DNA of 43,274 nucleotides from a virus. The notes under the pieces are model-generated. The model did not search any database, was not told the origin of the DNA, and saw nothing but the letters and a program-made list of their open reading frames with translations. A program made the position numbers and the translations under genes. The stretch is from IMG/VR virus record IMGVR_UViG_3300000928_000109, positions 7,755-51,028 of that record; one strand, 5' to 3'. This document shows positions 12,254 to 27,825 of this stretch, in pieces (within the stretch, counting starts at the first letter, position 1; every line of letters begins with the position of its first letter).

Positions 12254-12424
12254 ATGACTATTAAACCATTAGATATCCTTCACCTACTCGAAGATGAAGA
12301 CATTGAAATGATGGAATATATAGATTTGAATAAGTTATGTATTATGATTACGTTGGATGAGCAATTAAATAAAGAAGAAATAAGCAATAATGAAAGTTTT
12401 AGTAATAGGGGAAATTTGTGCTGA
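12254..12424 (+). CDS. Small acidic protein
   Basis: 56 residues from ATG 12254, chosen over ATG 12239, which lies inside the preceding gene. Acidic and helical (LHLLEDEDIEMMEYIDLNK). Its 3' end overlaps the kinase start by 35 bp, suggesting coupled translation. Unknown function. Confidence 0.5.
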   Translation: MTIKPLDILHLLEDEDIEMMEYIDLNKLCIMITLDEQLNKEEISNNESFSNRGNLC

Positions 12425-13136
12425 TAAATTCGTTTACTGCCAAGCTAAACGTTTATCACCTGAAGCCCCAGTCCCAGTATTAAACCCTGTAGAGGTAGTA
12501 ACTAATTTTGGTATGGCGGGTAACACAGCAGCCAATATTAAAGCTCTCAGCCCTGATTGCACACTATTTTCATTAGGGCAACCTGAGCAAATAACAAAAA
12601 CACGCTATATAGAGAAAAAATCTAATCATATGTTTTTTCGTGTTGATGAGGGTGAAGAAAAAGTTACTCCACTAAGATGGGGTCCTGAGGTTGATATTTT
12701 ACTAGGGCAAGTTGATATTGTAATCGTTAGTGATTATAATAAAGGTTATTTAAGTAATGGTGATTTAAAAGAAATTGCTCGCAAATCTAAATTATCTATT
12801 TTAGATAGTAAACGTAAACTTACTAATGAGATTATTGAAGGGTTTACGTTTGTAAAACTAAATGAATCTGAACGTATCAATAACCCTGAATTGACTTGTG
12901 ATAATATTATTACAACATTAGGTAAACTTGGTGCTGAATATCAAAATGAAGTATACGAATCACCTAACCCACAAGACACAATTGATGTTAGTGGTGCCGG
13001 AGATACATTTACAGCATCATTTATTGTTAAATACTATCAATTAAAAGACGAGCGTGCTGCTATTAAATTTGCTAATAGAATGGCTGCCGAAGTGGTATCT
13101 AAACGTGGTGTAGCTGTTCCTACTGAACGAATTTAA
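12390..13136 (+). CDS. rfaE1: PfkB kinase matching the HldE/RfaE N-terminal domain (heptose-7-phosphate kinase-like)
   Basis: 248 residues. It follows the HldE kinase domain almost motif by motif: VIGEICADKFVYC, KRLSPEAPVPV (compare SRISPEAPVPV in bacterial HldE), GMAGNTAANIKAL, VIVSDYNKGYLS, LDSKRKL, FVKLNESE, and the PfkB signature IDVSGAGDTFTASF with catalytic Asp near residue 215. In bacteria this domain phosphorylates D-glycero-D-manno-heptose-7-phosphate at C1. It is about 70 residues shorter than the bacterial domain, mainly in the middle. The matching nucleotidyltransferase half is a separate gene at 27373, so bifunctional HldE is split here. Confidence 0.85.
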   Translation: MKVLVIGEICADKFVYCQAKRLSPEAPVPVLNPVEVVTNFGMAGNTAANIKALSPDCTLFSLGQPEQITKTRYIEKKSNHMFFRVDEGEEKVTPLRWGPEVDILLGQVDIVIVSDYNKGYLSNGDLKEIARKSKLSILDSKRKLTNEIIEGFTFVKLNESERINNPELTCDNIITTLGKLGAEYQNEVYESPNPQDTIDVSGAGDTFTASFIVKYYQLKDERAAIKFANRMAAEVVSKRGVAVPTERI

Positions 13137-13167
13137 ACGCAGAGCCTTGCAAAAATGCGGATGGGGG

Positions 13168-13200
13168 TTTGGTTATGCCAAATCCCCTTCGTATATTTAC
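13168..13200 (+). promoter_or_regulatory. Host-type promoter, copy 1, with hairpin over the -33 box
   Basis: TTTG, 20 bp, TATATTTAC, fitting the Bacteroidota -33/-7 pattern. GGGGTTTGG and CCAAATCCCC around a TTATG loop form an imperfect inverted repeat over the -33 box. The leader ends in TAAAGGTTATG at the gene starting at 13222. Confidence 0.8.
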
Positions 13201-13221
13201 CATGTTAAAAAAGTAAAGGTT

Positions 13222-13653
13222 ATGCCACTCTGGAAATTCAAAAATACAAACAAATATGGTAATATTCGAACTCGTATTGTCCATACTGATAGCTCTCAGT
13301 TTAGTTTCAATCCAAAAGGACTTGGTAAATTTGTTGGTGTTCAACGATTCCACTATGAATCGCGTAGTCCCTATTTTGGTGTCCTCAAATCCCCATTAGA
13401 TGGTAAATATTACCTCACCCCAGATTGGATTGAGGTAGTTCCTGGCACTACAATTAAGGATATTGTTTACAATACTCCTGTTGTTGAAAAACCCATTGTA
13501 GAAAAAGATGAATGGATGTTTGAATCAGCATCTGATCCTGGTCAATTTTATAAAGTACGCAAAATAGGCATCACATATAAATGCACATGCCCAGGTTCAT
13601 GGAGAGCAAAAGACCGCGAGTGTAAACACATTAAATCCGTGAAAAATGTGTAA
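13222..13653 (+). CDS. SWIM zinc-finger-like protein
   Basis: 143 residues from ATG 13222, which follows the promoter leader AAAGGTT. A longer in-frame reading from 13147 would translate the promoter itself and is rejected. The C-terminus has YKCTCPGSWRAKDRECKHIK, the CxC...CxH arrangement of SWIM zinc fingers, which bind DNA or proteins. The N-terminal 100 residues (WKFKNTNKYGNIRTRI, YYLTPDWIEVVPG) are unassigned. It is the first gene under the first strong host-type promoter. Confidence 0.75.
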   Translation: MPLWKFKNTNKYGNIRTRIVHTDSSQFSFNPKGLGKFVGVQRFHYESRSPYFGVLKSPLDGKYYLTPDWIEVVPGTTIKDIVYNTPVVEKPIVEKDEWMFESASDPGQFYKVRKIGITYKCTCPGSWRAKDRECKHIKSVKNV

Positions 13654-14026
13654 AGTTAGTTGGTGTGATAACGAAACTGAGTTCTATAATAAAACTCAGC
13701 GTTACGTGTTTTGCCCCACCCATATTCAGTATAAACAAATATGTGGTGCCGCAGTTAGATTAGATCGTCCTCATTTAATGTATAAAGTTGAACGATGGAC
13801 TCGAGGTGAGCATCAATGTGAAAGTTGTGGTTTTGATCCCGTAATCTCTTATCCCAATCTACATACTAAAGGCCAATCATCAATGCTAGATGTAGACCAT
13901 ATTAATTCAGATATTAAACATACACCTGAGGGTGAACAGCCATCAAATTACCAATTAAATTGTAAACACTGCCACATTGTAAAATCACATATGGAAGGTG
14001 ATTATGTAGCTAAAAAATATCGATAA
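13646..14026 (+). CDS. HNH endonuclease-like protein
   Basis: 126 residues. CESCGFDP, then MLDVDHINSD and NYQLNCKHCHIVKSH fit the zinc-binding HNH (beta-beta-alpha metal) layout with the first His in DVDH and paired Cys in CKHCH. An extra N-terminal Cys cluster (CKVSWCDNE, FCPTH) may form a second zinc site. It could be a homing nuclease or a packaging/recombination nuclease. It overlaps the previous gene by 8 bp and the next by one base. Confidence 0.75.
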   Translation: MCKVSWCDNETEFYNKTQRYVFCPTHIQYKQICGAAVRLDRPHLMYKVERWTRGEHQCESCGFDPVISYPNLHTKGQSSMLDVDHINSDIKHTPEGEQPSNYQLNCKHCHIVKSHMEGDYVAKKYR

Positions 14027-14367
14027 TGAATAGAAATACCTTTCAAATAGATTTTGATAAAGATAAATTACATTTCCCTTTTATGGGTGATTTACTAGAA
14101 ATTCAAACCGAAAGTGGTAGTTGGCTCCAATCAACTCGAATTACATTTCGTAGTTGGGATGGTCCTCGTCGTATTACAAAACATGATACCAAACTCACTA
14201 CTGACCCCCGGTCTATCAAAATGGGTACTACATCAAGTATAACTCGAGATTATAATGGTCCTGTTTATTTATATGGAACTAATACACAAAAAGCTTTGAA
14301 TAATACATTCAAGATATTATATTCACAGAAGTTAGAATTGGATAAGGTAAATAACAAATACTATTAA
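14026..14367 (+). CDS. Hypothetical protein
   Basis: 113 residues, beta-rich by composition (LLEIQTESGSWLQSTRITF) with RSWDGPRRI and GPVYLYGTN. No signal, membrane segment or known motif. It shares one base with the upstream stop, in an operon led by the SWIM gene. Confidence 0.65.
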   Translation: MNRNTFQIDFDKDKLHFPFMGDLLEIQTESGSWLQSTRITFRSWDGPRRITKHDTKLTTDPRSIKMGTTSSITRDYNGPVYLYGTNTQKALNNTFKILYSQKLELDKVNNKYY

Positions 14368-14368
14368 T

Positions 14369-14782
14369 ATGAGTAGAGGTCGACCTAGTGAAAGCGAAGC
14401 AATCCCATTGGACCAATGGACAATGGAATGCTATGAATACCCTAACAAACCCGAATTAGGTTATAAAGCAATCTATTATTTTGATCGTAATAAAAGCCCT
14501 AATGGTTGTTGGAGAGTAGACCATACCCCAGCTAAAAATGAGGTTTACCCCAAAATTAAAGCTGATAAAGGTAAAGCATATAATCAGCAACCTGTAGTAA
14601 TGGTATTTAAAACATCTAATAATTCAAATGCTCGAGTTAAAATGAAGATTTGGGCTAACGAAAACATTGATTACATTGCTACACAAACCAAACTACCAGG
14701 CGTGCCTGATAAAGCAGTTATACTTGAACTTGGAGTTGGTGAATCTTTTATCAACATTTGGAAGTCAAAGTATAAATTGTGA
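14369..14782 (+). CDS. Hypothetical protein
   Basis: 137 residues. It starts MSRGRPSESEAIPLDQWTME and has CYEYPNKPELGYKAIYYFD, NGCWRVDHTP and VVMVFKTSNNSNARVKMKIW, suggesting a compact beta-rich protein. Its stop overlaps the GTG start of the sulfotransferase-like gene by four bases. Unknown function. Confidence 0.65.
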   Translation: MSRGRPSESEAIPLDQWTMECYEYPNKPELGYKAIYYFDRNKSPNGCWRVDHTPAKNEVYPKIKADKGKAYNQQPVVMVFKTSNNSNARVKMKIWANENIDYIATQTKLPGVPDKAVILELGVGESFINIWKSKYKL

Positions 14783-15480
14783 TTTTACCTAACGAAAAAT
14801 TAATTTACATTCATGTTCCAAAAACCGGAGGTGCTTCGGTTGAGGATTTTCTATTAGATAAATTTGGATACGAACGTAGTATTCTCACTTTTACAGATGG
14901 TATAGGAACCTCTCAGTTTAATAGTGATAATAGTGGTAAAAGGACACTATACCCATTAATGCATTATACTCTACCTCAATTGACTAAGGAAGTAAATAGA
15001 TCAGGTCATAAAGTAGATAATTCTTGGAATATATTTTCAATTGTTAGAAATCCCTATTATAAACTTATCTCTGAATTGTTTTTTGTATGGAATATCCCTT
15101 TGACATTCCATTACCATACTTTACCTGAGTCAGCTCGCCCAGCTTTAGTTGATAGTTCATTAGATGAATATATAAATAATCCTGATAATGTTAATTATCA
15201 TAGTAATCATTCTTTACCACAATATAAATTCTTTGAAAATACAGATTTGAATTATAAAATATTTAAATTTGAAGATGGATTAGAAAATATTATGAGTAAA
15301 TTAGGGTTTGAAATTGAAAAACCATTCCCACATCGATTAAATATTTTTAAGGAAAGAAACACCCCTAAACCAGATTATAAAGATGTTTTAACACCTTATT
15401 TAGTTGAAACTGTTAATAACCTATATTATAAAGACTTTGAAATATTTGGCTATGATATGTTGTCTCCTTTGGATATCTAA
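14779..15480 (+). CDS. Sulfotransferase-like protein (GTG start)
   Basis: 233 residues. KLIYIHVPKTGGASVEDFLL matches the 5'-phosphosulfate-binding loop of Sulfotransfer_2-type enzymes (IHIPKTGGTS), and FSIVRNPYYKLISELF matches the 3'-phosphate motif (RNPYxRxxS). YKIFKFEDGLENIMSKLGF and YYKDFEIFGYD close the domain as in carbohydrate sulfotransferases. Such enzymes use PAPS to sulfate glycans. The GTGA junction makes GTG the natural start. With glycosyltransferases in the same genome, sulfation of a glycan is the likeliest job (inference). Confidence 0.82.
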   Translation: MILPNEKLIYIHVPKTGGASVEDFLLDKFGYERSILTFTDGIGTSQFNSDNSGKRTLYPLMHYTLPQLTKEVNRSGHKVDNSWNIFSIVRNPYYKLISELFFVWNIPLTFHYHTLPESARPALVDSSLDEYINNPDNVNYHSNHSLPQYKFFENTDLNYKIFKFEDGLENIMSKLGFEIEKPFPHRLNIFKERNTPKPDYKDVLTPYLVETVNNLYYKDFEIFGYDMLSPLDI

Positions 15481-15500
15481 CTATTTTTTTGTATATTTAT
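15468..15500 (+). promoter_or_regulatory. Host-type promoter, copy 2
   Basis: TTTG at 15468, exactly 20 bp, then TATATTTAT at 15492, embedded at the end of the sulfotransferase gene. It also contains the ATATTTATAA string seen before structural genes and a TATAAATA box just downstream, so it could be read early and late. It serves the gene at 15521. Confidence 0.65.
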
Positions 15501-15520
15501 AACATATAAATAAAGTAATT

Positions 15521-16183
15521 ATGGCAACAAGAGCATTAGTAGGTTTCATCAATGATGGCCCAGAATTAATTTCAACTTACAACCATTATGATGGCTACCC
15601 AGAAAATTTAGGTGTAGGATTAGATTCATATTATTCAATGCCTGAAGAAGCATTAAAAGTAGCTTCTATGGGTTATATTTCTTACATGAACCCTGAAACT
15701 GGTGAAATTGATGCTAAACATAAAGAACCAGCTGATCGCACTAAATTGTCTACATCATTTGACGATGCTATGATGGAAATAGCTAAAGTAGCTAATTCAT
15801 ATATTGCTGATTATGTTTACATTTATGATATTGTAAATTCAGAATGGGTTAATGTTAAAATGTATGGCACTCGCCAAACCGGTGAAGCATTAGCAGATTT
15901 ACTTCGAGACTTAGATGGTAATATTTTTGGTCCTTCACTTGATGAAGTAAACGAAACTTATGAAACTAAGTGGAAAAAATTCTTAAATGAAGGTGAAGTA
16001 GCTAAAGTAATGTCTCAAGCAATGTTTAAATTACAAGACGAACCTAAAGAAATGCTCGACGCTTATAAAGCTTCATTAACAAATGATATTCGCTTAAATG
16101 GTCAAGAACGATATGCTGACTATTCAGTAGAGGATTTCATTGAAGATTATGAAAATTACATTGCCGATAAAATGGATTACTAA
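15521..16183 (+). CDS. Hypothetical phage protein
   Basis: 220 residues. MATRALVGFINDGPELISTY and YNHYDGYPENLGVGLDSYY at the N-terminus recall a family of phage proteins that begin with a similar TRALIG...YDGYP pattern; their function is unknown to me. The rest is acidic and helical. It has its own promoter. Confidence 0.7.
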   Translation: MATRALVGFINDGPELISTYNHYDGYPENLGVGLDSYYSMPEEALKVASMGYISYMNPETGEIDAKHKEPADRTKLSTSFDDAMMEIAKVANSYIADYVYIYDIVNSEWVNVKMYGTRQTGEALADLLRDLDGNIFGPSLDEVNETYETKWKKFLNEGEVAKVMSQAMFKLQDEPKEMLDAYKASLTNDIRLNGQERYADYSVEDFIEDYENYIADKMDY

Positions 16184-16199
16184 TTTATTAAAAAAAGTT

Positions 16200-17165
16200 A
16201 TGCTAAAAGGACAAATGGGTGGAGAGTTTGCTCCACAACAAGTTAGGTCAATCGATTCTGATATTGAATATCCAAACATTGAAAAAGGGCCATCACCCCA
16301 AGACTTTGTTCAACCTATTGAACAAGTAGATTCTCCGTTTTGGCCTAAATCCGGATACTCTCATCCACCATTACAAGATGGAACTCGCGTTAGACATGGT
16401 TTAAATATGAGCCCTGATTTGGATAAACAACCTCTACCAATCAGTTTTCAATTACCTGATCCCGAACCACTACGTGAACAATGGTTAAAAAATAAGGTAG
16501 TAAATATTACTCCTATTTTACCAGATACCATCGCAAATGAGGTTCACCAGTATTATTTTAATCAACCTCGTAATTTCTGGGAATTCCCAATCTCCCCCGA
16601 TCCATATTTTGACTATGTCCAAAATGAGGTTGAGAGCCCTGATTATTATCACATGTATGATGCTAAAGAAGGTGACCCATCAATTCCTGAACGTATAGCT
16701 CACGCACATGAGGTAAATAACCGAGGTGAATTTGGTTATATGTACTATAGAGCATCTGTTCGTAATCAACAACTTCACCCACATTTAGATGTATTCCAAT
16801 CCAAAGTGTTTAGTGACTATTTGTCCTACATTACAGGACATACTGATCTTAAATACGAAGCTGATTATACGTTTATGAATTGTTATGAGGAAGGTCATTA
16901 TAATGGCCCTCATACAGATGGTAATAATGGTCGAATCGCTTTTGTTTACCACTTATCTAAGGACTGGCTCCCAGGTTATGGTGGTTTATTTATGCGAATG
17001 GATTGGGATTGGAAAACAGTAAATAAAGTAGTTGTTCCACCATTTAATACATTATCTATCTTTGATACTGAATGGCAAGGACAACGAGGTGCTCCTCACT
17101 TAGTGAGTGAAGTAGCTCAAGGATGTAATAACAAGAGAATTAGTTACACAGGTTGGTATTTATAA
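16200..17165 (+). CDS. 2OG-Fe(II) oxygenase, prolyl-4-hydroxylase-like
   Basis: 321 residues from ATG 16200, which follows AAAAAGTT; an in-frame start at 16140 lies inside the previous gene. The C-terminal half has the double-stranded beta-helix motif: GPHTDGNNGRIAF (His238, Asp240), YGGLFMRMDWDW, APHLVSEV (His300) and Arg313 in NNKRISYTGWYL, the His-x-Asp...His...Arg set that binds Fe(II) and 2-oxoglutarate. The Pro-rich N-terminal 100 residues are unassigned. It could hydroxylate a protein, nucleobase or sugar. Confidence 0.85.
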   Translation: MLKGQMGGEFAPQQVRSIDSDIEYPNIEKGPSPQDFVQPIEQVDSPFWPKSGYSHPPLQDGTRVRHGLNMSPDLDKQPLPISFQLPDPEPLREQWLKNKVVNITPILPDTIANEVHQYYFNQPRNFWEFPISPDPYFDYVQNEVESPDYYHMYDAKEGDPSIPERIAHAHEVNNRGEFGYMYYRASVRNQQLHPHLDVFQSKVFSDYLSYITGHTDLKYEADYTFMNCYEEGHYNGPHTDGNNGRIAFVYHLSKDWLPGYGGLFMRMDWDWKTVNKVVVPPFNTLSIFDTEWQGQRGAPHLVSEVAQGCNNKRISYTGWYL

Positions 17166-17168
17166 ATT

Positions 17169-17762
17169 ATGACACAAGCAAACCCACAAATTGAATCATA
17201 TTTCCCCACACCATTTGGGTTTGGGATGAATAAGGAATTGGCAGATCATTATTTGCCTATTATCAAACGTATCTTAGATGAACATTCTGATAATAAATTT
17301 TTCTACAAAGGTAGAACAACTCATAACCAAGATGATTTTCGTTTAGCAGAACATCCTGAAATGGGTATGATGAAGGAATTCGTTTGGAATGCGAGTAAGG
17401 AATATTTGAATAACCTAGGTTTTGATGGTAACCATCTCCAAGGTGATATTTTTCTAATTGCTAATGCATTGGAAAAAGATTCATTCCATAAAAGTCACGT
17501 TCACTACGATTGCTTAGTCTCAGGTGTTTGGTATCTACAAGTCCCAGAAGCAAGTGCTCCATTGGAATTTGAAGACCCAGTATTCGCTCGAACATTGTAT
17601 CGTGTTCCTATTTTGGATGAAACCAACCCTCATACTTGGCAAAACACTTATTTATACCCTAAAGAAGGATATTATACTTGTTTCCCAAATTGGATTCGAC
17701 ATTCGGTCCTACCTAATGATAGTATGGATTCCCGAATTGCTATTTCGTGGAATATTAGATAA
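17169..17762 (+). CDS. 2OG-Fe(II) oxygenase-like protein (TIGR02466-like)
   Basis: 197 residues. FHKSHVHYDCLVSGVWYLQV, then FPNWIRHSVLPNDSMDSRIA, fits the small 2OG-Fe(II) oxygenases common in marine myophages: first His in HVHYD, second His in IRHSV, and Arg in DSRIA for the 2-oxoglutarate. It is three bases downstream of the other oxygenase gene and on the same transcript, so the two may act on related substrates. Confidence 0.82.
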   Translation: MTQANPQIESYFPTPFGFGMNKELADHYLPIIKRILDEHSDNKFFYKGRTTHNQDDFRLAEHPEMGMMKEFVWNASKEYLNNLGFDGNHLQGDIFLIANALEKDSFHKSHVHYDCLVSGVWYLQVPEASAPLEFEDPVFARTLYRVPILDETNPHTWQNTYLYPKEGYYTCFPNWIRHSVLPNDSMDSRIAISWNIR

Positions 17763-17765
17763 GAA

Positions 17766-17787
17766 ATGAGTGCTTAAGGGCGCTCAT
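17766..17787. terminator. Hairpin between convergent genes
   Basis: ATGAGTGC and GCGCTCAT pair over 8 bp (one G-U) around a TTAAGG loop. It sits where the plus-strand oxygenase gene meets the minus-strand lipoprotein gene, whose stop is in the hairpin. The run of T expected for an intrinsic terminator is weak on both sides, so termination is inferred from position. Confidence 0.5.
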
Positions 17788-17989
17788 CTCTATTATTTAC
17801 TGTAAGAGCAACGATTTTGTTATATTCTTCTAAACTAAGTTTAGTTCTAGTAACTATAACTACATGATCTTCATAAATAAGTGCGTGGCGAGTTGTTTTA
17901 GGGGATTCGTGCACTTGATGAGCTACGTAATTAGTAGAAGAGCAGGCAGTCATAACTAACGCAACCCCAATTAATAATAGTTTTTTCAT
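17774..17989 (-). CDS. Small predicted lipoprotein
   Basis: 71 residues on the minus strand. MKKLLLIGVALVMTACSSTN is a lipoprotein signal with lipidated Cys16. The mature part is short and has a strand-rich segment (RHALIYEDHVVIVTRTKL). It is one of only two minus-strand genes in the window. Envelope location is expected; a superinfection-blocking role is possible but not shown. Confidence 0.75.
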   Translation of the reverse strand: MKKLLLIGVALVMTACSSTNYVAHQVHESPKTTRHALIYEDHVVIVTRTKLSLEEYNKIVALTVNNRDERP

Positions 17990-18080
17990 AGTAATGAATT
18001 TAAGGGTTAATTTATTGTGACCATAAATATTATTTAGTCATGTTAGAGTCATATTTAAGTAAAAACGTCATATTAAAATA
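17990..18080. other. Divergent intergenic region
   Basis: AT-rich gap between the minus-strand lipoprotein gene and the plus-strand promoter at 18081. In the minus orientation it has an ATATTTATGG string that could be the -7/late-type box of the lipoprotein gene. Nothing else is recognised. Confidence 0.4.
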
Positions 18081-18113
18081 TTTGGATTCCCTAAACATTA
18101 TTTGTATATTTAC
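18081..18113 (+). promoter_or_regulatory. Host-type promoter, copy 3
   Basis: TTTG at 18081, 20 bp, TATATTTAC at 18105. The leader to the ATG at 18138 lacks the AAAGGTTATG ending of most other copies and has ACAGGTATAAATG instead. Confidence 0.75.
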
Positions 18114-18137
18114 ATGTTAAAAAACACACAGGTATAA

Positions 18138-18617
18138 ATGAAAAAAATTCTTTATCTTCACGGACTTGAAAGCAAACAGGGTGGACCCAAAGTTGAGTAT
18201 TTAGCTACTCAAGGTGCTGTATTTGCCCCTGATATGGATTATAAGAATCCTCAACTCAAACTACTCCTTGATACAATGTATCAACAATTCAAACCAGATG
18301 TAGTTATTGGATCTAGTATGGGTGGTTATGCTGCTTCTTATTTAGCAACTCGTTATAACGTAGATACACTCATGTTTAACCCAGCTCTACACAGCCGTAG
18401 TTTTGACCCAACGTTGGATTTTGTCCCAACATTGGATTCTGAAAATTTGACAGTTGTAGTTTTAGGTTATACAGATGAGGTTATTGACCCAATTACTACT
18501 TTGGGTATGCTTAGTTTGTATCCTAAAGTTAAAATTGTTCGAGGACAACATGGTCACAGAACACCCTTGAGCGTATTTATCGATATTTATGATAAATACA
18601 ATTTCAATGAGCTTTGA
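18138..18617 (+). CDS. YqiA/UPF0227-like alpha/beta-hydrolase (esterase)
   Basis: 159 residues. ILYLHGLESKQGGPKVEYLA is the oxyanion-loop start of YqiA-type hydrolases, VVIGSSMGGYAASYLA has the nucleophile Ser in G-S-S-M-G-G, and an Asp in YTDEVID plus His in RGQHGHRTP complete the likely triad. Related enzymes hydrolyse short acyl or thioesters. It could remove acetyl groups from a polysaccharide or be a metabolic helper. The call is by motif; the substrate is unknown. Confidence 0.8.
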   Translation: MKKILYLHGLESKQGGPKVEYLATQGAVFAPDMDYKNPQLKLLLDTMYQQFKPDVVIGSSMGGYAASYLATRYNVDTLMFNPALHSRSFDPTLDFVPTLDSENLTVVVLGYTDEVIDPITTLGMLSLYPKVKIVRGQHGHRTPLSVFIDIYDKYNFNEL

Positions 18618-19170
18618 TTTAAAAAAATATTTAGCAAATAATCCCTTATTAGAAGTAGATATCCCTAAAAATAAATGGGTAGAATTATCTAAGCAAGATT
18701 TAGAGGACTATAAAGACGACATTTTCGGTTTAATTAAAACTGCCTATGCTTATATTGGTGGTCACTCCAATTACAAATCAGCTGATGATGTAACTGGATC
18801 CGAAGGTGAAAACGATTACGAGGTAATTGATTTAGATCAAGATGGTGAAATCGATGCTGTAAACGTAGCTAAACCAAAAGGTCCTGCTGGTGTTAAATTT
18901 GTAGCAACAGGGCATGATGGTAGTTCACCTGCTAAACGTGAAGTCATCAAACACAAAATTGATAGACTTAAAAAACCAGGTTTCTACGTTGAAGTATCAG
19001 GTAAAATTAAGGATATTTTAGTTAATGCTGGTGTGCCCGTTGTTACAGACGAAGCTACAATACGTAAAGCGCTCGCTGGTAAAGAAATCACTATGAATGA
19101 TGATGGAACCTACACTCGTGAAATTGGAGGTTCAAAACACACTAAAACACTTCTTGGAATGCCTTTGTAA
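18607..19170 (+). CDS. Hypothetical protein with Asp-rich loop
   Basis: 187 residues from ATG 18607, overlapping the esterase by 11 bp. EVIDLDQDGEIDAVNVAKPK looks like a strand-loop with acidic residues, and FVATGHDGSSPAKREVIKHK, GFYVEVSGKIKDILVNAGV and VVTDEATIRKALAGKEI follow. A similar order occurs in cyanomyophage proteins of uncertain, possibly GNAT-like, fold; I cannot confirm it. Likely cytoplasmic. Confidence 0.65.
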   Translation: MSFDLKKYLANNPLLEVDIPKNKWVELSKQDLEDYKDDIFGLIKTAYAYIGGHSNYKSADDVTGSEGENDYEVIDLDQDGEIDAVNVAKPKGPAGVKFVATGHDGSSPAKREVIKHKIDRLKKPGFYVEVSGKIKDILVNAGVPVVTDEATIRKALAGKEITMNDDGTYTREIGGSKHTKTLLGMPL

Positions 19171-19174
19171 TCTA

Positions 19175-19207: not shown

Positions 19208-19232
19208 CACATAAGAAATAAAAATAAAGGTT

Positions 19233-19478: not shown

Positions 19479-19485
19479 TAGAATA

Positions 19486-20291: not shown

Positions 20292-20299
20292 TAGAAGTT

Positions 20300-21117: not shown

Positions 21118-21304
21118 TAATATAATTACATACCTTATAATTGGGGTTACTCTTAATCTAATATATGATTGGGCAGTTGATAGTCTAGGAGCTGAATACC
21201 GTTTTACTCTTAAAGAAAGGGTTGTAGTAACCTTGATTTGGCCATTTAGTGTTATTATATTTATCTATCACTTTATAAAAAGTATGTTTGGTGGCGAATC
21301 TTAA
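21110..21304 (+). CDS. Small membrane protein
   Basis: 64 residues, two hydrophobic helices (ISNIITYLIIGVTLNLIY and VVVTLIWPFSVIIFIYHFI) separated by a short polar loop. It overlaps the basic peptide gene by 8 bp and the next by 14 bp. It could be holin-like in topology, but nothing specific supports that. Confidence 0.65.
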   Translation: MISNIITYLIIGVTLNLIYDWAVDSLGAEYRFTLKERVVVTLIWPFSVIIFIYHFIKSMFGGES

Positions 21305-21641
21305 AGCACTTTTATTAGGAATTATGTTTTATATGATTGGGCAGGTGATGACTTACTACCAGCTCAATGGACAATTTATTTGGCCTTGGTTTAAACGTAA
21401 TCCTTTTCTATTATCTTTATTGGGAATACCCATTTCACTAATATTTATTCTCGCAACTAAACACACAGTAAATGCGTTTGATGGTACAATGTGGCCACAA
21501 CGCTTTATAGGTTTTGCTAGTGGCATCTTAATTTATGCCTGGGGTACTAGTTACTATTTCAACCAACCGATTGATACCAAAACTATGATTTCCTTAGGCT
21601 TATCCCTATTATTAATTAGCGTACAGATTTTTTGGAAATGA
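21291..21641 (+). CDS. Polytopic membrane protein (GTG start)
   Basis: 116 residues from GTG 21291 (an in-frame TTG at 21288 is also possible). Four hydrophobic segments are visible, at ALLLGIMFYMIGQVMTYY, PFLLSLLGIPISLIFILA, FIGFASGILIYAWGTSYYF and MISLGLSLLLISVQIFW. AFDGTMWPQRFIGFA links the middle ones. Function unknown; with the adjacent small membrane protein it forms a membrane pair. Confidence 0.65.
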   Translation: MANLKALLLGIMFYMIGQVMTYYQLNGQFIWPWFKRNPFLLSLLGIPISLIFILATKHTVNAFDGTMWPQRFIGFASGILIYAWGTSYYFNQPIDTKTMISLGLSLLLISVQIFWK

Positions 21642-21808
21642 CAAACGAGGAGTTAGTAGAATATTATGGCCACAAAGCCGCTGATAAAGGTAAATTTAGA
21701 GAATGGCAAGAAATTAGTTCTTCATTACGCACTGAAAGTCCTAAAGTTCATATGAGTGAAATAGCAGCACGTGCTTATAAAATGGTTGTAGGTAGTGAAC
21801 AAGATTGA
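21638..21808 (+). CDS. Small hypothetical protein
   Basis: 56 residues from ATG 21638 (ATGA overlap) to TGA 21806-21808. Helical: MTNEELVEYYGHKAADKGKF, then SPKVHMSEIAARAYKMV. The next gene begins with a GTG 14 bp before its end. Unknown. Confidence 0.55.
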   Translation: MTNEELVEYYGHKAADKGKFREWQEISSSLRTESPKVHMSEIAARAYKMVVGSEQD

Positions 21809-22421
21809 TATATTCTCCCCATTTTATTACAAATTTAATTTATTAGAGCATTTCATTATTAGAGATGCTTATTTAGATAAGATTATAGAAAACTATAATC
21901 ACTCTCCATATCATTCACATGATTGGAATGTTCATACTAATTATTATTTAAAGGATAATTTACCTCACGAATTGGATTGGTGGATTAGTGTTCAGCATTA
22001 CAAAAAATACGTTAACGAATTTATCGAACATTATTTTAGAGGTTTACAATTGGATTGGAGAATCGATGGTGAACCCTGGTATACGGTTTATGGTAAAGGA
22101 CAAAAAGCAGACCAACACGAACATATGCCTTGTGACTTCTCAGCAGTTCATTTTATTAAATTTAATCCTGAGATACATGAACCAATCCGTTTTGTCCATC
22201 CTGAATTAACCAAAACTAAATACGCTGCTACATTTAAACCCCATCTACATGATAATTTAGGCACTTGTTCACGTCAATCGTATTATAAAGAACATTACGT
22301 CCCAGATGTTAAGGAAGGTGATTTAATTATATTCCCAAGTGAATTACAACATTTAGTTTACGCTAATCAAAGCGATGAATTACGAGCAACAATAGCATTT
22401 AATTTCAGTTTAAAAGTATAA
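21795..22421 (+). CDS. Third 2OG-Fe(II) oxygenase-like protein (GTG start)
   Basis: 208 residues. A cluster YGKGQKADQHEHMPCDFSAV gives His-x-His/Asp ligands, and EGDLIIFPSELQHLVYANQS plus ELRATIAFNFSLKV give the distal His and the Arg of the 2OG-Fe(II) fold, as in the small phage oxygenases. FVHPELTKTKYA lies between. It shares one base with the next gene (GH16-like). It is a different branch from the two oxygenases at 16.2-17.8 kb. Confidence 0.78.
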   Translation: MNKIDIFSPFYYKFNLLEHFIIRDAYLDKIIENYNHSPYHSHDWNVHTNYYLKDNLPHELDWWISVQHYKKYVNEFIEHYFRGLQLDWRIDGEPWYTVYGKGQKADQHEHMPCDFSAVHFIKFNPEIHEPIRFVHPELTKTKYAATFKPHLHDNLGTCSRQSYYKEHYVPDVKEGDLIIFPSELQHLVYANQSDELRATIAFNFSLKV

Positions 22422-23215
22422 TGGAAAATATTATTAATTTATTTTATCGTATTCGTTGGTGGTTTTTAGTTGTGACTAATAACTATTCTAAACTTAGAAC
22501 TCCAAACAATAACTTTACCTTATCTAAAGAATGGGATTTTACCCATTCAGATTTTGAATTATTAGATGATGATTTTAGATATGCTCCACCTTGGGGTAAT
22601 AAAGTAAACAAACGTTGCTCATTCAAATTAAATAAACGTGGTATTGAATTAACATCTGAAGGAGTTACATTTAATAATATTATCAATACTGACGATGATA
22701 AAAATGAAACACCATTTATCTCAGGGTGTCTAGTTTCTAAAACAAATAATCTACTACCTACATTTAGTAAAGTAAGTGCGTTGTATGCTATTAATAGAAC
22801 AGAGGGTAATTGGTGTGCGTTTTGGACTACTGATTCTAAAAACACAATGCCTGAAAATGATATTATTGAGTTCTTTGGTTTCAAAAATGGTAGACGTAAA
22901 TTGTCTCCAAACGTTCATTATGGAACAAGCTACAATAGTAAAAAATACAAATTCCATTACCCAATGAACTTGTATTTCCCAGAGAAATTAAGTGACAAAT
23001 TTATGGAATGGGGTTGTGAATTCTACCCTAATAAAACAGTATACACAATTAATAACATCCCAGTTTATTATACAACACGTTCATGTAGCTCAAACGACAG
23101 AACTGTGTGGTTAAACGGTGGAACTTGGTATGATGCTACATTTGGTATCGAAGGTGTTAGTTCACGTGTAAAATGGCTTAAATATTATTCGTTAAAAGAT
23201 GAATCAAAAAATTGA
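22421..23215 (+). CDS. GH16-like concanavalin-fold glycosidase or lectin
   Basis: 264 residues. NWCAFWTTDSKNTMPENDII then EFFGFKNGRRKLSPNVHYGT fits the GH16 core; PENDIIEF has the ExDxxE catalytic triad of GH16, and WGCEFYPNKTVYTINNIPVY matches the strand pair EWTPDKIxxYVDG. GH16 enzymes cut beta-1,3/1,4-glucans, agarose, carrageenan and related glycans. No signal peptide is obvious, though a hydrophobic stretch near residue 14 (WWFLVVT) could act as one. It could degrade host surface polysaccharide or be a sugar-binding fold. Confidence 0.7.
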   Translation: MENIINLFYRIRWWFLVVTNNYSKLRTPNNNFTLSKEWDFTHSDFELLDDDFRYAPPWGNKVNKRCSFKLNKRGIELTSEGVTFNNIINTDDDKNETPFISGCLVSKTNNLLPTFSKVSALYAINRTEGNWCAFWTTDSKNTMPENDIIEFFGFKNGRRKLSPNVHYGTSYNSKKYKFHYPMNLYFPEKLSDKFMEWGCEFYPNKTVYTINNIPVYYTTRSCSSNDRTVWLNGGTWYDATFGIEGVSSRVKWLKYYSLKDESKN

Positions 23216-23366
23216 TGTTAGACGTGCCTTCAAAAGTTGGTATGTAATTAGAGGTAACGAACATCTTAGAATGGGTAGTTGGGAAGATGCTATTCATTTG
23301 GCTAAAATTAGTGATAAACCTTGTAATGTGATGAGCGAGCAACAATATAAAATAAATTATGAATAA
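23199..23366 (+). CDS. Small hypothetical protein
   Basis: 55 residues from ATG 23199 to TAA 23364-23366, overlapping the GH16-like gene by 17 bp and the next by 8. Basic N-terminus (QKIDVRRAFKSWYVIRG), then HLRMGSWEDAIHLAKIS. Unknown. Confidence 0.5.
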   Translation: MNQKIDVRRAFKSWYVIRGNEHLRMGSWEDAIHLAKISDKPCNVMSEQQYKINYE

Positions 23367-23451
23367 GTGGTTTTGGATAATGGCAGGTTCGTTTTGGGGT
23401 ATTAGTATTTTACTTACATATTTCTTTTTTGTTTTGATTAATAATCAATAA
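23359..23451 (+). CDS. Tiny membrane peptide
   Basis: 30 residues, a single transmembrane helix (WFWIMAGSFWGISILLTYFF) with short polar ends. It overlaps the previous stop by 8 bp, which supports translation. Unknown function. Confidence 0.45.
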   Translation: MNKWFWIMAGSFWGISILLTYFFFVLINNQ

Positions 23452-23479
23452 AAATATTTTAAAGACTTCTGTGGGGGGA

Positions 23480-23512
23480 TTTGGTTACGCCAAATCCCCT
23501 TCGTATATTTAC
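23480..23512 (+). promoter_or_regulatory. Host-type promoter, copy 6, with perfect hairpin
   Basis: TTTG at 23480, 20 bp, TATATTTAC at 23504. GGGGATTTGG and CCAAATCCCC form a perfect 10-bp inverted repeat (loop TTACG) over the -33 box. It is nearly identical to copy 1 at 13168. The leader ends in AAAGGTTATG at 23540. Confidence 0.85.
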
Positions 23513-23539
23513 CACGTTAAAGAAATGAAAATAAAGGTT

Positions 23540-24088
23540 ATGCAAGTAGTAATTAAGCAAGAAATCAAATCCGAATTCTCAGGTCGTGTATTGCGTGTGC
23601 AAAAGATGATTAACCCTGAATTGTGTGTTGATACAATTGCTATTGCTCGTTCTAGTGCTATTGGTGCTAAAGAATCTAATGACTGTGTTGTTAGAGCATT
23701 TATGGCTGCTCTTGATGTAACTTATGATGTTGCACATTCTTGGGTTGCTAAAAAACTCCATCGCCAAAATCGTAGAGGCACTTACACCAGCACATTTCTT
23801 TATAATGTATTAGGTAAAACTAAAAATGGTAAAAAAATCCAAATGTATGGTGCTTCACCTTCACATTTTTGGATGTATAAGGGAGTAAATATTATTACTA
23901 ACCCTAAGTATAAAAAACCAACTGGTTATACTATTGCCTCATTTATTGAGAACCATCCCGTTGGTCGTTTTGTAGTGGTTGTTGAAGGTCATGCAGTAGC
24001 AGTTGTTGATGGTAAGCTTTATGCCAACCGAAATGAAGGTGCTTACCAGATTAATCGTCGTGTTCATTATGCAATTCAAATCAAATAA
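23540..24088 (+). CDS. Putative cysteine peptidase-like protein
   Basis: 182 residues from ATG 23540 at the conserved AAAGGTT leader; the longer frame from 23471 translates the promoter and is rejected. ESNDCVVRAFMAALDV could supply a catalytic Cys at a helix N-terminus, and VVVVEGHAVAVVDGKLYANR has the His and Asp/Asn of papain-like (C39/transglutaminase-type) folds. It starts with its own promoter. The active-site reading is by analogy and moderate. Confidence 0.5.
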   Translation: MQVVIKQEIKSEFSGRVLRVQKMINPELCVDTIAIARSSAIGAKESNDCVVRAFMAALDVTYDVAHSWVAKKLHRQNRRGTYTSTFLYNVLGKTKNGKKIQMYGASPSHFWMYKGVNIITNPKYKKPTGYTIASFIENHPVGRFVVVVEGHAVAVVDGKLYANRNEGAYQINRRVHYAIQIK

Positions 24089-24089
24089 T

Positions 24090-24245
24090 ATGAAAGTAGG
24101 AGATAAAGTTACTAGCACAACATACCCAGGTCAAGAATTTGATTTGGTTTGGTATCAAGAAGGTGATTCAACGTGTGCTGTCCAAGATGAGAAAATTAGA
24201 GCAATTGTAAAAACTTCAACACTTAGTTTGGTTACCACAAAATAA
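24090..24245 (+). CDS. Small beta-rich protein
   Basis: 51 residues from ATG 24090; upstream in-frame ATGs lie in the previous gene. MKVGDKVTSTTYPGQEFDLV, DSTCAVQDEK and RAIVKTSTLSLVTTK suggest a small SH3-like or KOW-like barrel. The next promoter overlaps its 3' end. Unknown. Confidence 0.5.
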   Translation: MKVGDKVTSTTYPGQEFDLVWYQEGDSTCAVQDEKIRAIVKTSTLSLVTTK

Positions 24246-24259
24246 TTTCATATATTTAC
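24227..24259 (+). promoter_or_regulatory. Host-type promoter, copy 7
   Basis: TTTGGTTAC at 24227, 20 bp, TATATTTAC at 24251. The -33 box is inside the preceding gene. The leader ends in AGAGGTTATG at 24288. Confidence 0.8.
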
Positions 24260-24287
24260 CCTGTAAATGATTAATGAAATAGAGGTT

Positions 24288-24434
24288 ATGACTAAAGACA
24301 AATTCAATACAATCTGGAGCGATGAGGAGCTCAAACAAATGGGTGTAACTCGAGATGAGTGGTATCAAATCCATTGTGAAGAGGAGGAGTATACTAATGA
24401 ATGGGCTAATAGAGTTCGTTTCACATTCGAATAA
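24288..24434 (+). CDS. Small acidic protein
   Basis: 48 residues from ATG 24288 to TAA 24432-24434. Acidic and Trp-containing (NTIWSDEELKQMGVTRDEWY, then EEEEYTNEWANRV). It has its own promoter and leader, which is the main support. Unknown. Confidence 0.6.
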   Translation: MTKDKFNTIWSDEELKQMGVTRDEWYQIHCEEEEYTNEWANRVRFTFE

Positions 24435-24435
24435 C

Positions 24436-24486
24436 ATGAATCACTATTATCAGGACACTTGGATTGACGAAACGGACGAGGAATAG
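24436..24486 (+). CDS. Possible tiny acidic peptide
   Basis: 16 residues (MNHYYQDTWIDETDEE) between two small genes, one base after the preceding stop. It may be a real microprotein or chance; too short to judge. Confidence 0.25.
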   Translation: MNHYYQDTWIDETDEE

Positions 24487-24489
24487 ATA

Positions 24490-24678
24490 ATGGGTAAACG
24501 TAAACAAAAACCGCCATCAAGCTTTATTCACTACAACGAATATTTTACCTACGATAAACAAACATGGAGTGTCATTCACAAATTAGGTGAGTTGGTTTAT
24601 GCGGTTGAGATAGGTAAAGGTGGTAAAGTAGGGGGTGGTGTGATGAGGTTTAGAGATGGGGTGATGGTTGAGAGATGA
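24490..24678 (+). CDS. Small basic hypothetical protein
   Basis: 62 residues. MGKRKQKPPSSFIHYNEYFT followed by WSVIHKLGELVYAVEIGKGG and a Gly/Arg-rich end. Last gene before the noncoding block. No motif recognised; codon use is less typical near the end. Confidence 0.45.
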   Translation: MGKRKQKPPSSFIHYNEYFTYDKQTWSVIHKLGELVYAVEIGKGGKVGGGVMRFRDGVMVER

Positions 24679-25119
24679 AAAGAGCGATTTAAAACTCTAT
24701 ATAGATGTATAGCGCAAAACGAATACGGATATATTTTAAACTTCTTGCGGATATAATATAATACTACCCTCCGTATATACAAACACATACATTTAGACAA
24801 TATATTTGGAGATTTAATTAACGCGATTTACGTAGCGACCTGGGAAAAACATGGCGTTGTATGTTGTAACATATAAACAACGTATAACCGAATCAAATAT
24901 ACGTTTTAACATATAATTTAACGTGTTGGTTAGTGTGAATGTGTGGTCGACCATTGCAATGTGTGATATACAAATATCAAAATATCAATATCGATGTAGA
25001 TTCATATATTAGTAGGTGACAAGGGTGCGGGGTGTTATGTGACATGGGGTTGTGTTACCGTTAACCCCCTTCCAGCGCCCATCCAACCTATTCTTTTCTT
25101 TAAAAAAATATATACGAGA
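24679..25119. other. Palindrome-rich noncoding block A
   Basis: About 440 bp with no supported gene. It holds two exact copies of TAACATATAA (24867 and 24907, start-to-start 40 bp), an ATGTTGTAACAT palindrome, GTCGAC, ATCGAT and TACGTA palindromes, and a GGGGTT/AACCCC inverted repeat at 25046-25068. Base use differs from the coding regions. Possible roles are a replication origin, a control region, or an RNA gene; none is shown. Confidence 0.5.
24867..24916 (+). repeat. TAACATATAA direct repeat pair
   Basis: Two exact 10-base copies, 40 bp apart start to start, in block A. Such spacing could be a binding site pair or iteron; two copies are too few to be sure. Confidence 0.4.
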
Positions 25120-25152
25120 CGTGGATACCCGAGATGGGGTTCGTATATTTAT
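25120..25152 (+). promoter_or_regulatory. Host-type promoter, copy 8 (weak -33 box)
   Basis: CGTG in place of TTTG, 20 bp, TATATTTAT at 25144. The spacer still has ACCCGAGATGGGGTTCG-like sequence of the family, and the leader ends in AAAGGTTATG at 25174. Confidence 0.65.
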
Positions 25153-25173
25153 GGTGTTGAAAAAATAAAGGTT

Positions 25174-25743
25174 ATGAACGCATTATTGAACATTGAGAAC
25201 GAGGCCCGAGTGATTGTAGAGCAATTGGCCGATAAGGAAATTAACCGCCTACAGGACCTCCACAACGGATTCACCACGTGGATGAACGAGCCCGGAAACG
25301 CTATGATTAATGATTATAGTGGTGATGTAGATACCTATGGTAGTGTTGCTAAGTATGTTTACATGACCCAGTACACTTATTATGATCGTGAGTTGAATGC
25401 TTATGTTGCGCCAACTGAATACCCTACCTCATACCGTGATCGCCAACAGATGTTTTATAACAAGAATTTGGCTAATGTGGTTGCGGAAATTCGTTTGGTG
25501 AATCAAGGTGGTTTAAAGCGTTACCGTGGGGAGTTTATCGGTGCCAACATGTTCAAATTGAATCGTGCCCTAGCCAAACACCTTACCAATGAAATGAGCG
25601 CTAGCGACATTAAAATTAATGTTGGTGGTGATGGAGCCGAGGTTACTGCCCGTGTTAATGATATGATGTTCAAGACATTCGGGACATTGTGTGGTGGTTA
25701 TATTCAGTGTTATCACTATCGCTACCGTAGTAGCCTTAAATAA
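25174..25743 (+). CDS. Hypothetical protein isolated between noncoding blocks
   Basis: 189 residues from ATG 25174 at the conserved leader. Helical N-terminus (NALLNIENEARVIVEQLADK), a Tyr-rich middle (YVYMTQYTYYDRELNAYVAP), and NVGGDGAEVTARVNDMMFKT near the end. No known domain. Its codon use includes more GC-ending codons than the genes around. It is the only gene between the two noncoding blocks, so it may be tied to whatever they do. Confidence 0.65.
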   Translation: MNALLNIENEARVIVEQLADKEINRLQDLHNGFTTWMNEPGNAMINDYSGDVDTYGSVAKYVYMTQYTYYDRELNAYVAPTEYPTSYRDRQQMFYNKNLANVVAEIRLVNQGGLKRYRGEFIGANMFKLNRALAKHLTNEMSASDIKINVGGDGAEVTARVNDMMFKTFGTLCGGYIQCYHYRYRSSLK

Positions 25744-25757
25744 TACCCCACCCCCTA

Positions 25758-25799
25758 CCCCGTACGCATGTACTTAAGTACTGGTATTTGCGTATGGGG
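25758..25799. repeat. Cruciform-like inverted repeat
   Basis: CCCCGTACGCA and TGCGTATGGGG pair over 11 bp with one G-U; the loop contains a 12-bp palindrome GTACTTAAGTAC. No run of T follows, so it is not a simple terminator. Confidence 0.6.
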
Positions 25800-25887
25800 A
25801 TCTCCCTACGTACCACGATTTATATATTATAGATGGTTGTGCGGCCGTACGCCGTATATAGTATTATATAGATACCCACGATCGCCG

Positions 25888-25909
25888 ATATCCATACGCG
25901 CGTGGATAT
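25888..25909. repeat. Hairpin in block B
   Basis: ATATCCA and TGGATAT pair over 7 bp around TACGCGCG, which overlaps the palindrome ACGCGCGT. Confidence 0.5.
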
Positions 25910-26143
25910 GCCCAAAAGAGGGTGTTTAATGTATTCATCCCTCGTAAACGATCTTTACCCATCGAGCATGTATATACTTATATCCCCATAAATTGATATG
26001 TGTTTCCATAAAGGCCATTTCGTATGATTTCCCACGATATGCGAAAGAGTTTTTTAAAAAGATCTTCGCGCGTCGACAAAAATATATACGCTGGGAATCC
26101 TTATCTTCACCTCACCACCCCACGTAACATTTCTTAGGAAAGA

Positions 26144-26176
26144 TTTGGTTACTCAACTCCTCGTTCGTATATTTAC
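26144..26176 (+). promoter_or_regulatory. Host-type promoter, copy 9
   Basis: TTTGGTTAC at 26144, 20 bp, TATATTTAC at 26168. A short leader ends in AAAGGTTATG at 26196. Confidence 0.85.
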
Positions 26177-26195
26177 CACATAAGAAATAAAGGTT

Positions 26196-26321
26196 ATGGA
26201 TAAGAAAGGAGATCAAATTTTAGAGTTAATTACCGGTTACGCTAATGGATTCATCACCGATGATGAGTGTATGGAAATGTGTGACCTAGTAATGAATGAG
26301 ATCACTGTTATTAATAATTAA
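26196..26321 (+). CDS. Small acidic protein
   Basis: 41 residues from ATG 26196 to TAA 26319-26321. MDKKGDQILELITGYANGFI then DDECMEMCDLVMNEI. Its promoter and leader are the main support. Unknown. Confidence 0.6.
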   Translation: MDKKGDQILELITGYANGFITDDECMEMCDLVMNEITVINN

Positions 26322-26326
26322 AGGTT

Positions 26327-26515
26327 ATGGCTACAAAATTAAAACAATACATGTTCACGTTTGAGGATGGTGGGTGGAACACCGTGTGGGCTAAGTCAAT
26401 TCCAGGAGCGCGTAAGCAAGCTGCTGTTGAGTACCCAAATTTACCAGCACGTCCCGATTCGTTTCACGTTGCTACCCGTGAAGGGGTGGAAGCAGCAATG
26501 ACATTGTTTTGGTAG
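26327..26515 (+). CDS. Small hypothetical protein
   Basis: 62 residues with its own AAAGGTTATG start but no separate promoter. KQYMFTFEDGGWNTVWAKSI then GARKQAAVEYPNLPARPDSF suggest a small alpha/beta protein. Cotranscribed with the 41-residue gene. Confidence 0.65.
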   Translation: MATKLKQYMFTFEDGGWNTVWAKSIPGARKQAAVEYPNLPARPDSFHVATREGVEAAMTLFW

Positions 26516-26519
26516 AAAA

Positions 26520-26552
26520 TTTGGCTCCCCAAGAGATTGTTTGTATATTTAC
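26520..26552 (+). promoter_or_regulatory. Host-type promoter, copy 10
   Basis: TTTGGCTCC at 26520, 20 bp, TATATTTAC at 26544. The leader ends in TAAGGTTATG at 26576, the DUF932 gene. Confidence 0.8.
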
Positions 26553-26575
26553 CCCGTTAATAAAAAGATAAGGTT

Positions 26576-27376
26576 ATGATGTATTCGATTAAACAAGACA
26601 AGAACGAATTTTTGACAAAAGAGCAAATTCGTGAAATTGCTCCTTCGGTTTTCACAGCTAAAGCCGATAAGAAGACCACTTCTAAACACTATGTTCACAT
26701 TCCCACCGAAAAGGTCATTGATGATATGACAGCTTTGGGTTGGGGTGTTGTTGATGCTAAGCAAGTTAAAGCTCGTAAAGGCCAAGGTTACCAGAAACAC
26801 ATGGTTGTGTTCGGTAATGATGATCTCCGTATTGATGGACAAGATGGAGATACAGTTATGCCTCGTATCTTAATGACAAACTCTCACGATGGAAAGAATG
26901 CTTTTACATTCCAAGCCGGTTTGTACCGTTTGGTTTGTTCAAATGGTCTTGTTATCGCAGATGCCGAGTTTGCGTCAATGAAGATTCGTCACATGGGTTA
27001 CGATCTTAATGAATTATCCACAGTAATTAGCGAGATCGTTGAGAAATTGCCATTGACAGTAGAGTGCATGAATAAGCTAAAGGCTAAAAAGCTTTCTCAA
27101 GAAGAAAAAGAGAAGTTTGCCCTCGAAGCTATCGGATTGCGTTTTGATACCAAAAATAAAAACTTCGAAATCCAAGAACTTCTTGAACCTACTCGTGTGG
27201 AGGATAAAGGTGATGATATGTGGAGCGTGTATAATCTAATCCAGGAGAAGCTCGTACACGGGATGATCAACTATGGTGTGGGAGTCAAGCAGCGTAAAGC
27301 TCGCAAGATCAAGAACTTCCAACAAGATATGAAGTTGAACCAAGAATTGTACACACTAGCCCTAAGTTACGCATGA
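26576..27376 (+). CDS. DUF932-like phage/plasmid protein
   Basis: 266 residues. HYVHIPTEKVIDDMTALGWG, then RILMTNSHDGKNAFTFQAGL and YRLVCSNGLVIADAEFASMK, followed by VRHxG-like IRHMGYD, are the conserved stretch of DUF932 (phage/plasmid-like protein). The end has DDMWSVYNLIQEKLVHGMIN, another shared part. The family occurs on plasmids and phages without a settled function. It has its own promoter and its stop overlaps the next start (ATGA), so it is co-translated with the heptose nucleotidyltransferase-like gene. Confidence 0.82.
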   Translation: MMYSIKQDKNEFLTKEQIREIAPSVFTAKADKKTTSKHYVHIPTEKVIDDMTALGWGVVDAKQVKARKGQGYQKHMVVFGNDDLRIDGQDGDTVMPRILMTNSHDGKNAFTFQAGLYRLVCSNGLVIADAEFASMKIRHMGYDLNELSTVISEIVEKLPLTVECMNKLKAKKLSQEEKEKFALEAIGLRFDTKNKNFEIQELLEPTRVEDKGDDMWSVYNLIQEKLVHGMINYGVGVKQRKARKIKNFQQDMKLNQELYTLALSYA

Positions 27377-27825
27377 TGAGTTATATGTTTGAAGGTGAGA
27401 TGGGGAATGAGGGTGATACACCCGAAATTTCCCAGGTCTCCCCCAAAATTATCTGGGTTAACGGGTGTTTTGATGTGGTACATGCGGGGCATATTGAGAT
27501 GATTAAATTCGCTCGTTCGCTCGGTCAGGAATTAGTCGTGGGATTAGACACCGACGAGCGAGTTCAAGCTAGTAAAGGTCCATCTCGCCCACTAAACAAC
27601 CTATATAACCGAACTAAAGTAATGAGTGCAATCCGTTATGTGGATAAAGTCGTTTCATTCGGTACTAACGAGGAACTAATCGATGCTATTCGCACATCTA
27701 ATGTGGATACTATCGTAGTAGGGGAGGAATACAAGGGTCGCGTTATAGGGTCCGAGGTCGTAAAAAATATCGTGTATTTTCCTCGCATGTACGATCTCTC
27801 TACCACTAAAATCGTGTCGAAATAG
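27373..27825 (+). CDS. rfaE2: Cytidylyltransferase-like protein matching the HldE/RfaE C-terminal domain
   Basis: 150 residues. After a 25-residue extension, IIWVNGCFDVVHAGHIEMI has the HxGH nucleotidyltransferase motif, then LVVGLDTDERVQASKGPSRP, YNRTKVMSAIRYVDKVVSF, and STTKIVSK at the end, each lining up with bacterial HldE (NGxFDxxHAGH, NSDxSxxxxKGxxRP, STTxII). In bacteria this domain adenylylates heptose-1-phosphate to ADP-heptose. The kinase half is a separate gene at 12390, 15 kb away. The glycerol-3-phosphate and FAD members share the fold, but the SKG-RP and STT motifs favour the HldE type. Confidence 0.83.
   Translation: MMSYMFEGEMGNEGDTPEISQVSPKIIWVNGCFDVVHAGHIEMIKFARSLGQELVVGLDTDERVQASKGPSRPLNNLYNRTKVMSAIRYVDKVVSFGTNEELIDAIRTSNVDTIVVGEEYKGRVIGSEVVKNIVYFPRMYDLSTTKIVSK

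Follow-up and report, generated by a model that had tools for sequence, protein, structure and literature searches.

Why would a phage carry two separate genes resembling the kinase and nucleotidyltransferase halves of bacterial HldE, and does it use them to make activated heptose? We addressed this question in a 43,274-nucleotide stretch of viral DNA (the window) covering positions 7755–51028 of the 62,091-base virus record IMGVR_UViG_3300000928_000109. An earlier note on this DNA had described the two halves as lying about 15 kb apart and proposed that the phage makes its own activated heptose. The two genes are indeed separate and intact, both on the + strand: a compact PfkB kinase resembling the HldE N-domain (12390–13136) and a nucleotidyltransferase resembling the HldE C-domain (27373–27825), with 14.2 kb between the end of the first and the start of the second. 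Our favoured explanation, to which we assign a rough probability of 0.62, is that they are the two halves of a split, compact, virus-type HldE that makes nucleoside diphosphate (NDP)-heptose for the phage's glycosyltransferases.

The kinase gene has an ATG start and encodes a protein of 248 amino acids with the PfkB fold. Against all NCBIfam models, its top match was the HldE kinase domain (TIGR02198; E = 4e-33, 114.8 bits), followed by ribokinase at 37 bits, and the viral family PHROG_8133 (T4-GC 305) spanned the whole protein (E = 5e-66). A profile built from 18 viral kinases matched HldA (4E84) in the PDB at 1e-25; a ribokinase came second, at 1e-11. The AlphaFold2 model was confident (predicted local distance difference test score, 93; predicted template modelling score, 0.90), and Foldseek ranks 1–7 were all HldA chains, the first being Burkholderia cenocepacia HldA 4E8Z. 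Fructokinase, ribokinase and other PfkB families are therefore ruled out by both score and fold. Conserved blocks retained in the kinase include RLSPEAPVPV and DVSGAGDTF, both quoted in the earlier note, along with GM-GN..N, TKxR, RxD, SDYxKG, D-S/T-K and NxxE. The RxSPEAPVPV block occupies residues 21–30 and the catalytic GAGD residues 202–205, and R21, P24, P29, G204 and D205 were invariant across 80 kinase sequences. The proposed activity is phosphorylation of heptose 7-phosphate at position 1. In the kinase tree the window groups with L009 and L028. Four Patescibacteria-type contigs from metagenome-assembled genomes (L102–L105) also carry the compact kinase, but these copies are nested within the viral clade, which rules out Patescibacteria as its origin; they reflect either phage-to-host transfer or viral contigs binned with their host.

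The nucleotidyltransferase gene likewise has an ATG start and encodes 150 amino acids. Its top NCBIfam model was the HldE C-domain (TIGR02199; E = 1.4e-28, 99.5 bits) and it matched PHROG_7878 (T4-GC 304; E = 1e-38), placing both proteins in the viral split-HldE subfamily of PHROG_8133 and PHROG_7878. The nucleotide-binding motifs HxGH (HAGH), SKGxxRP and STT (STTK) are present, as are the longer strings first quoted for this gene (NGCFDVVHAGH, SKGPSRP and STTKIVSK). The profile searches and structure prediction that the earlier note had proposed as checks thus bear out its assignment of the pair to HldE, rather than to a fructokinase and an unrelated cytidylyltransferase, and the second protein is a proposed heptose 1-phosphate nucleotidyltransferase. 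Its nucleotide is less clear. The STTR5 motif (F/L)XXGRSTT is described in a commentary as a mark of broad nucleoside triphosphate use (PMC11573728); it is absent from the window protein, whose C-terminal motif is RMYDLSTT. The F/L position is Arg or Lys in 45 of 60 viral nucleotidyltransferases, and Arg also occupies it in the glycerol-3-phosphate cytidylyltransferase of Bacillus subtilis. Because RMYDLSTT departs from the STTR5 motif and has Arg at this position, adenosine triphosphate should perhaps not be presumed as the substrate, which we offer as a lead only.

The two genes are strongly linked across viruses. In a collection of 50,697 phage records, the kinase occurred in 34, the nucleotidyltransferase in 125 and both in 32, a co-occurrence (hypergeometric log10 p of about -83) that is inflated by near-identical records; many of these records are near-duplicates, with about 13 distinct phages represented. 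We also surveyed 60 non-redundant IMG/VR loci in which the kinase has 4 kb or more of sequence on either side. Within 4 kb of it, these loci contained the nucleotidyltransferase (36), a cupin (33), a HAD phosphatase (24) and a strong epimerase match (28), always on the kinase's strand, and the nucleotidyltransferase, cupin and HAD phosphatase were found jointly near the kinase in 22.

What is unusual in the window is the 14 kb between the genes, which are adjacent in most relatives. The closest relative, G002 (kinase 73% identical), is collinear with the window across the glycosyltransferase cluster and the kinase; the nucleotidyltransferase was not found on its 75-kb contig. In G017 (163 kb; kinase 55% identical), the kinase is followed after about 17 kb by a DUF932 gene and the nucleotidyltransferase, and the cupin lies 100 kb away. 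Because G017 has the window's gene order with similar spacing, the dispersed gene pair is an established trait of this lineage. The window's own DUF932 gene (26576–27376, + strand; PF06067, E = 4e-32) overlaps the start of the nucleotidyltransferase by 4 nucleotides, and the pair is conserved in synteny with G017. The nucleotidyltransferase tree, which has few columns, groups the window with L059 and L099, whose kinases fall in another branch, and suggests that the nucleotidyltransferase may have been replaced in the window lineage. We dropped this tree as proof of separate acquisition given its few columns and because G017 retains the DUF932–nucleotidyltransferase pair, about as far from its kinase as in the window.

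We searched the rest of the record for the remainder of the heptose pathway, as the earlier note had suggested, and found no match to GmhA, GmhB or HldD, nor to SIS_2, EcbF-type HAD, cupin or GT9 families, on the 62-kb fragment, which is probably incomplete as a genome. Across 50 kinase-bearing viral records, GmhA, SIS_2 and GmhB were each detected in none, which rules out a SIS-type isomerase there, while TIGR02199 was detected in 37, the cupin in 35 and an EcbF-type HAD in 19. HldD-family proteins were present in 32 of the 50 (12 with E < 1e-48, including all five cyanophages tested), and the 'nucleotide-sugar epimerase' of cyanophage P-SSM2 matched Escherichia coli HldD (1EQ2) at 4e-43, an alignment in which the HKGSM Lys is paired with a Lys. 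Domains of GT9, the heptosyltransferase family, occurred in 21, several directly beside the cassette.

Two families stand out as candidate substitutes for the 'missing' pathway steps. PHROG_1238 (T4-GC 306; for example, L004 9719–10063) is a HAD phosphatase of the EcbF–BcbF type with a DxDGT motif, which rules out the cyanophage annotation of this family as a 'phosphoheptose isomerase'. PHROG_7851 (T4-GC 307; for example, L004 10044–10400 and L043 9290–9616), annotated as 'cysteine dioxygenase', is a cupin linked to heptose cassettes with the metal ligands HxH(x4)E...H; the first match of its model was D-lyxose/D-mannose isomerase, with many cupins matching almost equally. We tentatively suggest that marine phages might hold a complete, rebuilt NDP-heptose pathway, with the cupin standing in for GmhA, the sedoheptulose 7-phosphate isomerase, and the EcbF-type HAD for GmhB beside the compact HldE halves and HldD, and that the window phage might belong to a lineage with this cassette scattered, as in G017; we hold this broader proposal with less than even confidence. 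On the window's own 62-kb record (L007), a HAD_2 phosphatase fused to a sugar nucleotidyltransferase (contig 4475–5839) lies just upstream of the glycosyltransferase cluster and is not GmhB.

For a split, compact HldE in the window phage, we infer the substrate, nucleotide, order of steps and destination of the sugar as follows. The kinase would convert heptose 7-phosphate to heptose 1,7-bisphosphate, a host enzyme or else a phosphatase encoded outside the fragment would take off the 7-phosphate, and the nucleotidyltransferase would then yield NDP-heptose, by homology the adenosine diphosphate (ADP) form, with cytidine or uridine triphosphate as possible other donors. With this product the phage glycosyltransferases could assemble or modify a glycan on the surface of the infected cell, a change that might serve superinfection exclusion, or could decorate virions. 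The original claim that the phage makes its own activated heptose thus stands in part: it is favoured by the HldE halves and by relatives' cassettes, often with HldD, and weakened by the lack of GmhA, GmhB and HldD on the fragment. Decoration of phage DNA and effects on animal immunity, also raised at that time, found no support, and for a phage from the environment any claim about immune signalling in animals is a remote one.

Several observations weigh against the favoured explanation. Both proteins scored below the equivalog cut-offs of their best models (345 bits for TIGR02198 and 181.5 bits for TIGR02199), as do the cyanophage and L012 relatives of the kinase for TIGR02198. The kinase is also shorter than the roughly 315 residues of a full HldE kinase domain. 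Two stretches of Salmonella HldE are missing from it: about 26 residues that follow the N-terminal Rossmann segment, and a helix, some 14–17 residues long, ahead of the LLVTRSEQG strand. In bacterial HldE C-domains the STTR5 F/L position is hydrophobic, but the majority of the viral nucleotidyltransferases carry Arg or Lys there. The 62-kb fragment, itself probably incomplete, holds neither a complete ADP-heptose pathway, with GmhA, GmhB and HldD beside HldE, nor a GT9 gene, and the two genes probably belong to separate transcription units here, judging from the promoter-like repeats described below. On the matter of length, the viral kinases aligned alongside have the same two gaps and a similar size (all about 245 residues), so the kinase is, on this alignment, a member of a compact viral subfamily and not a copy that has decayed in this phage.

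The same divergence, with viral members all of this compact size, would also fit a kinase and nucleotidyltransferase family that had shifted to another sugar phosphate, either a different heptose or a hexose, and made a different NDP-sugar. This alternative, which we regard as unlikely though the best of the rivals, is also consistent with the absence of GmhA and GmhB from all 50 records and with the unusual cupin and EcbF-type partners; it fits poorly with the HldD orthologues in many cassettes, the RLSPEAPVPV block common to HldE and HldA, and the activity reported for viral enzymes. Slightly less probable again is that the nucleotidyltransferase is a cytidylyltransferase for glycerol-3-phosphate or another alcohol phosphate, functionally unrelated to a kinase with which it shares a contig by coincidence. 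The HldE C-domain is still its top family, but glycerol-3-phosphate cytidylyltransferase (TIGR01518) came second among single-activity models at 81 bits, and the top phmmer matches in the PDB were cytidylyltransferases. The Arg of RxxxxSTT is also as in glycerol-3-phosphate cytidylyltransferase, yet clear phage proteins of that type fall on a separate long branch. Similarly, the 14 kb separating the gene from the kinase would suit a chance association, but its nearest viral relatives, L059 and L099 (50–52%), sit in kinase-linked cassettes, and its co-occurrence with the kinase is very strong. Finally, it is highly improbable that both genes are relics or non-enzymatic proteins. Such a reading would suit a kinase smaller than bacterial HldE, the dispersal of the pair and a nucleotidyltransferase not detected on the 75-kb contig of G002, but the frames are intact, the motifs are conserved over 80 diverse members, and the confidently predicted compact fold retains the catalytic Asp of GAGD.

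If NDP-heptose is made, its users would be sought among the surrounding glycan genes. Seven glycosyltransferases had been counted in the window, all on the + strand, and four of these have Pfam support: two of GT group 1 (2654–4093, PF00534, E = 5e-11; and a weak match at 4093–5367, PF00534, E = 8e-5) and two of family 2 (5794–6417, PF00535, E = 1.6e-6; and 7884–8660, PF00535, E = 1e-18). The other three (578–1486, 6414–7205 and 7202–7891) have no Pfam or PHROG match, the last two being GT-A-like by eye only. A sulfotransferase (14779–15480, + strand; PF03567, E = 3.5e-14) lies in the same neighbourhood, and an FkbM methyltransferase is also found on the contig. The window further encodes three 2-oxoglutarate–Fe(II) oxygenases (16140–17165, 17169–17762 and 21795–22421) and a glycoside hydrolase family 16-like protein (22421–23215; PF00722, E = 1e-7) that possibly degrades or binds a glycan.

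The gp6-like baseplate protein at 40378 is nearest to that of Flavobacterium phage immuto (45% identity), and this T4-like gene, in a virus record, rules out a bacterial source for the window. We also identified a promoter-like repeat, TTTGG-(N~19)-TTCGTATATTTAC, that is similar to the -33/-7 promoters of Bacteroidota. Its second half was found 16 times, compared with 3.5 expected, between 10182 and 32785 (sites include 13188, 19195, 23500, 26164, 27907, 28607 and 30467), with all 16 sites on the + strand and many preceding genes. The left flank of the record gave one two-mismatch match, at chance level, and the right flank none. Together, the immuto-like baseplate protein and the Bacteroidota-looking repeats suggest a T4-like phage whose host would belong to the Bacteroidota. 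Eight transfer RNA genes lie at 30.7–33.6 kb, and amid them, on the opposite strand, is an open frame of 508 amino acids (31295–32821, - strand) with no family match. In L008, a very long GSSGTSG-repeat protein (8823–11090) adjoins tail or baseplate genes and extends past the record end.

Our wider survey supplies candidates for the isomerase step and for the phosphatase step reported absent in viruses. It also bears on why many aquatic phages make activated heptose, including cyanophages, whose hosts' lipopolysaccharide (LPS) is reported to be without heptose (PMC4390846).

Compared with known systems, the window pair has the same kinase and nucleotidyltransferase motifs and two-domain chemistry as bacterial HldE (RfaE), for example that of Salmonella, but is split rather than fused, with the shortened kinase discussed above, which scores far below the equivalog cut-off. 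Burkholderia HldA (4E84) and the single-domain enzyme 5X9Q, which we take to be of the HldC type, are naturally split like the window pair, and HldA is the kinase's best fold match; identities are only 22–24%, however, and the kinase domain of that system is full length. Another such system is the cassette T4-GC 304/305/306/307/308 of T4-like cyanophages (P-SSM2, S-SM2, S-CAM1, P-TIM68 and S-SSM7), which has a separate nucleotidyltransferase and compact kinase of the same PHROGs (33–45% identity) and glycan genes nearby. In these cyanophages the pair is adjacent or at most 2 kb apart, with HAD, cupin and HldD genes alongside it, whereas the window pair is 14 kb apart and the 62-kb fragment lacks such companions.

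A literature search on viral ADP-heptose auxiliary genes returned no match, and the earlier note had implied that a split phage HldE was new. Such pairs are, however, already annotated in cyanophage genomes, a published cyanophage note names a heptose kinase, an 'isomerase' and HldD (PMC7378029), and rfaE/waaF have been reported in marine viral metagenomes (PMC10653327). In the passages covered, rfaE is among the LPS-related genes of pelagimyophages, which are T4-like marine phages, and split, compact or dispersed forms are not analysed there (PMC7029224). Tang et al. 2024 (Science, doi 10.1126/science.adk7314), as described in commentaries (PMC11461863, PMC11573728), reported functional viral NDP-heptose enzymes active in vitro; in that description these are a kinase and nucleotidyltransferase of the same pathway as the window pair. 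The commentary says that phosphatases are absent in viruses, whereas many of the kinase cassettes surveyed here have an EcbF-like HAD phosphatase. Given the cyanophage annotations, the rfaE reports and the enzymes of Tang et al. 2024, split HldE in viruses is not new and the window is a good new example of known viral genes, one that extends the known sugar-activation cassette, in dispersed form, to an apparent T4-like phage of Bacteroidota.

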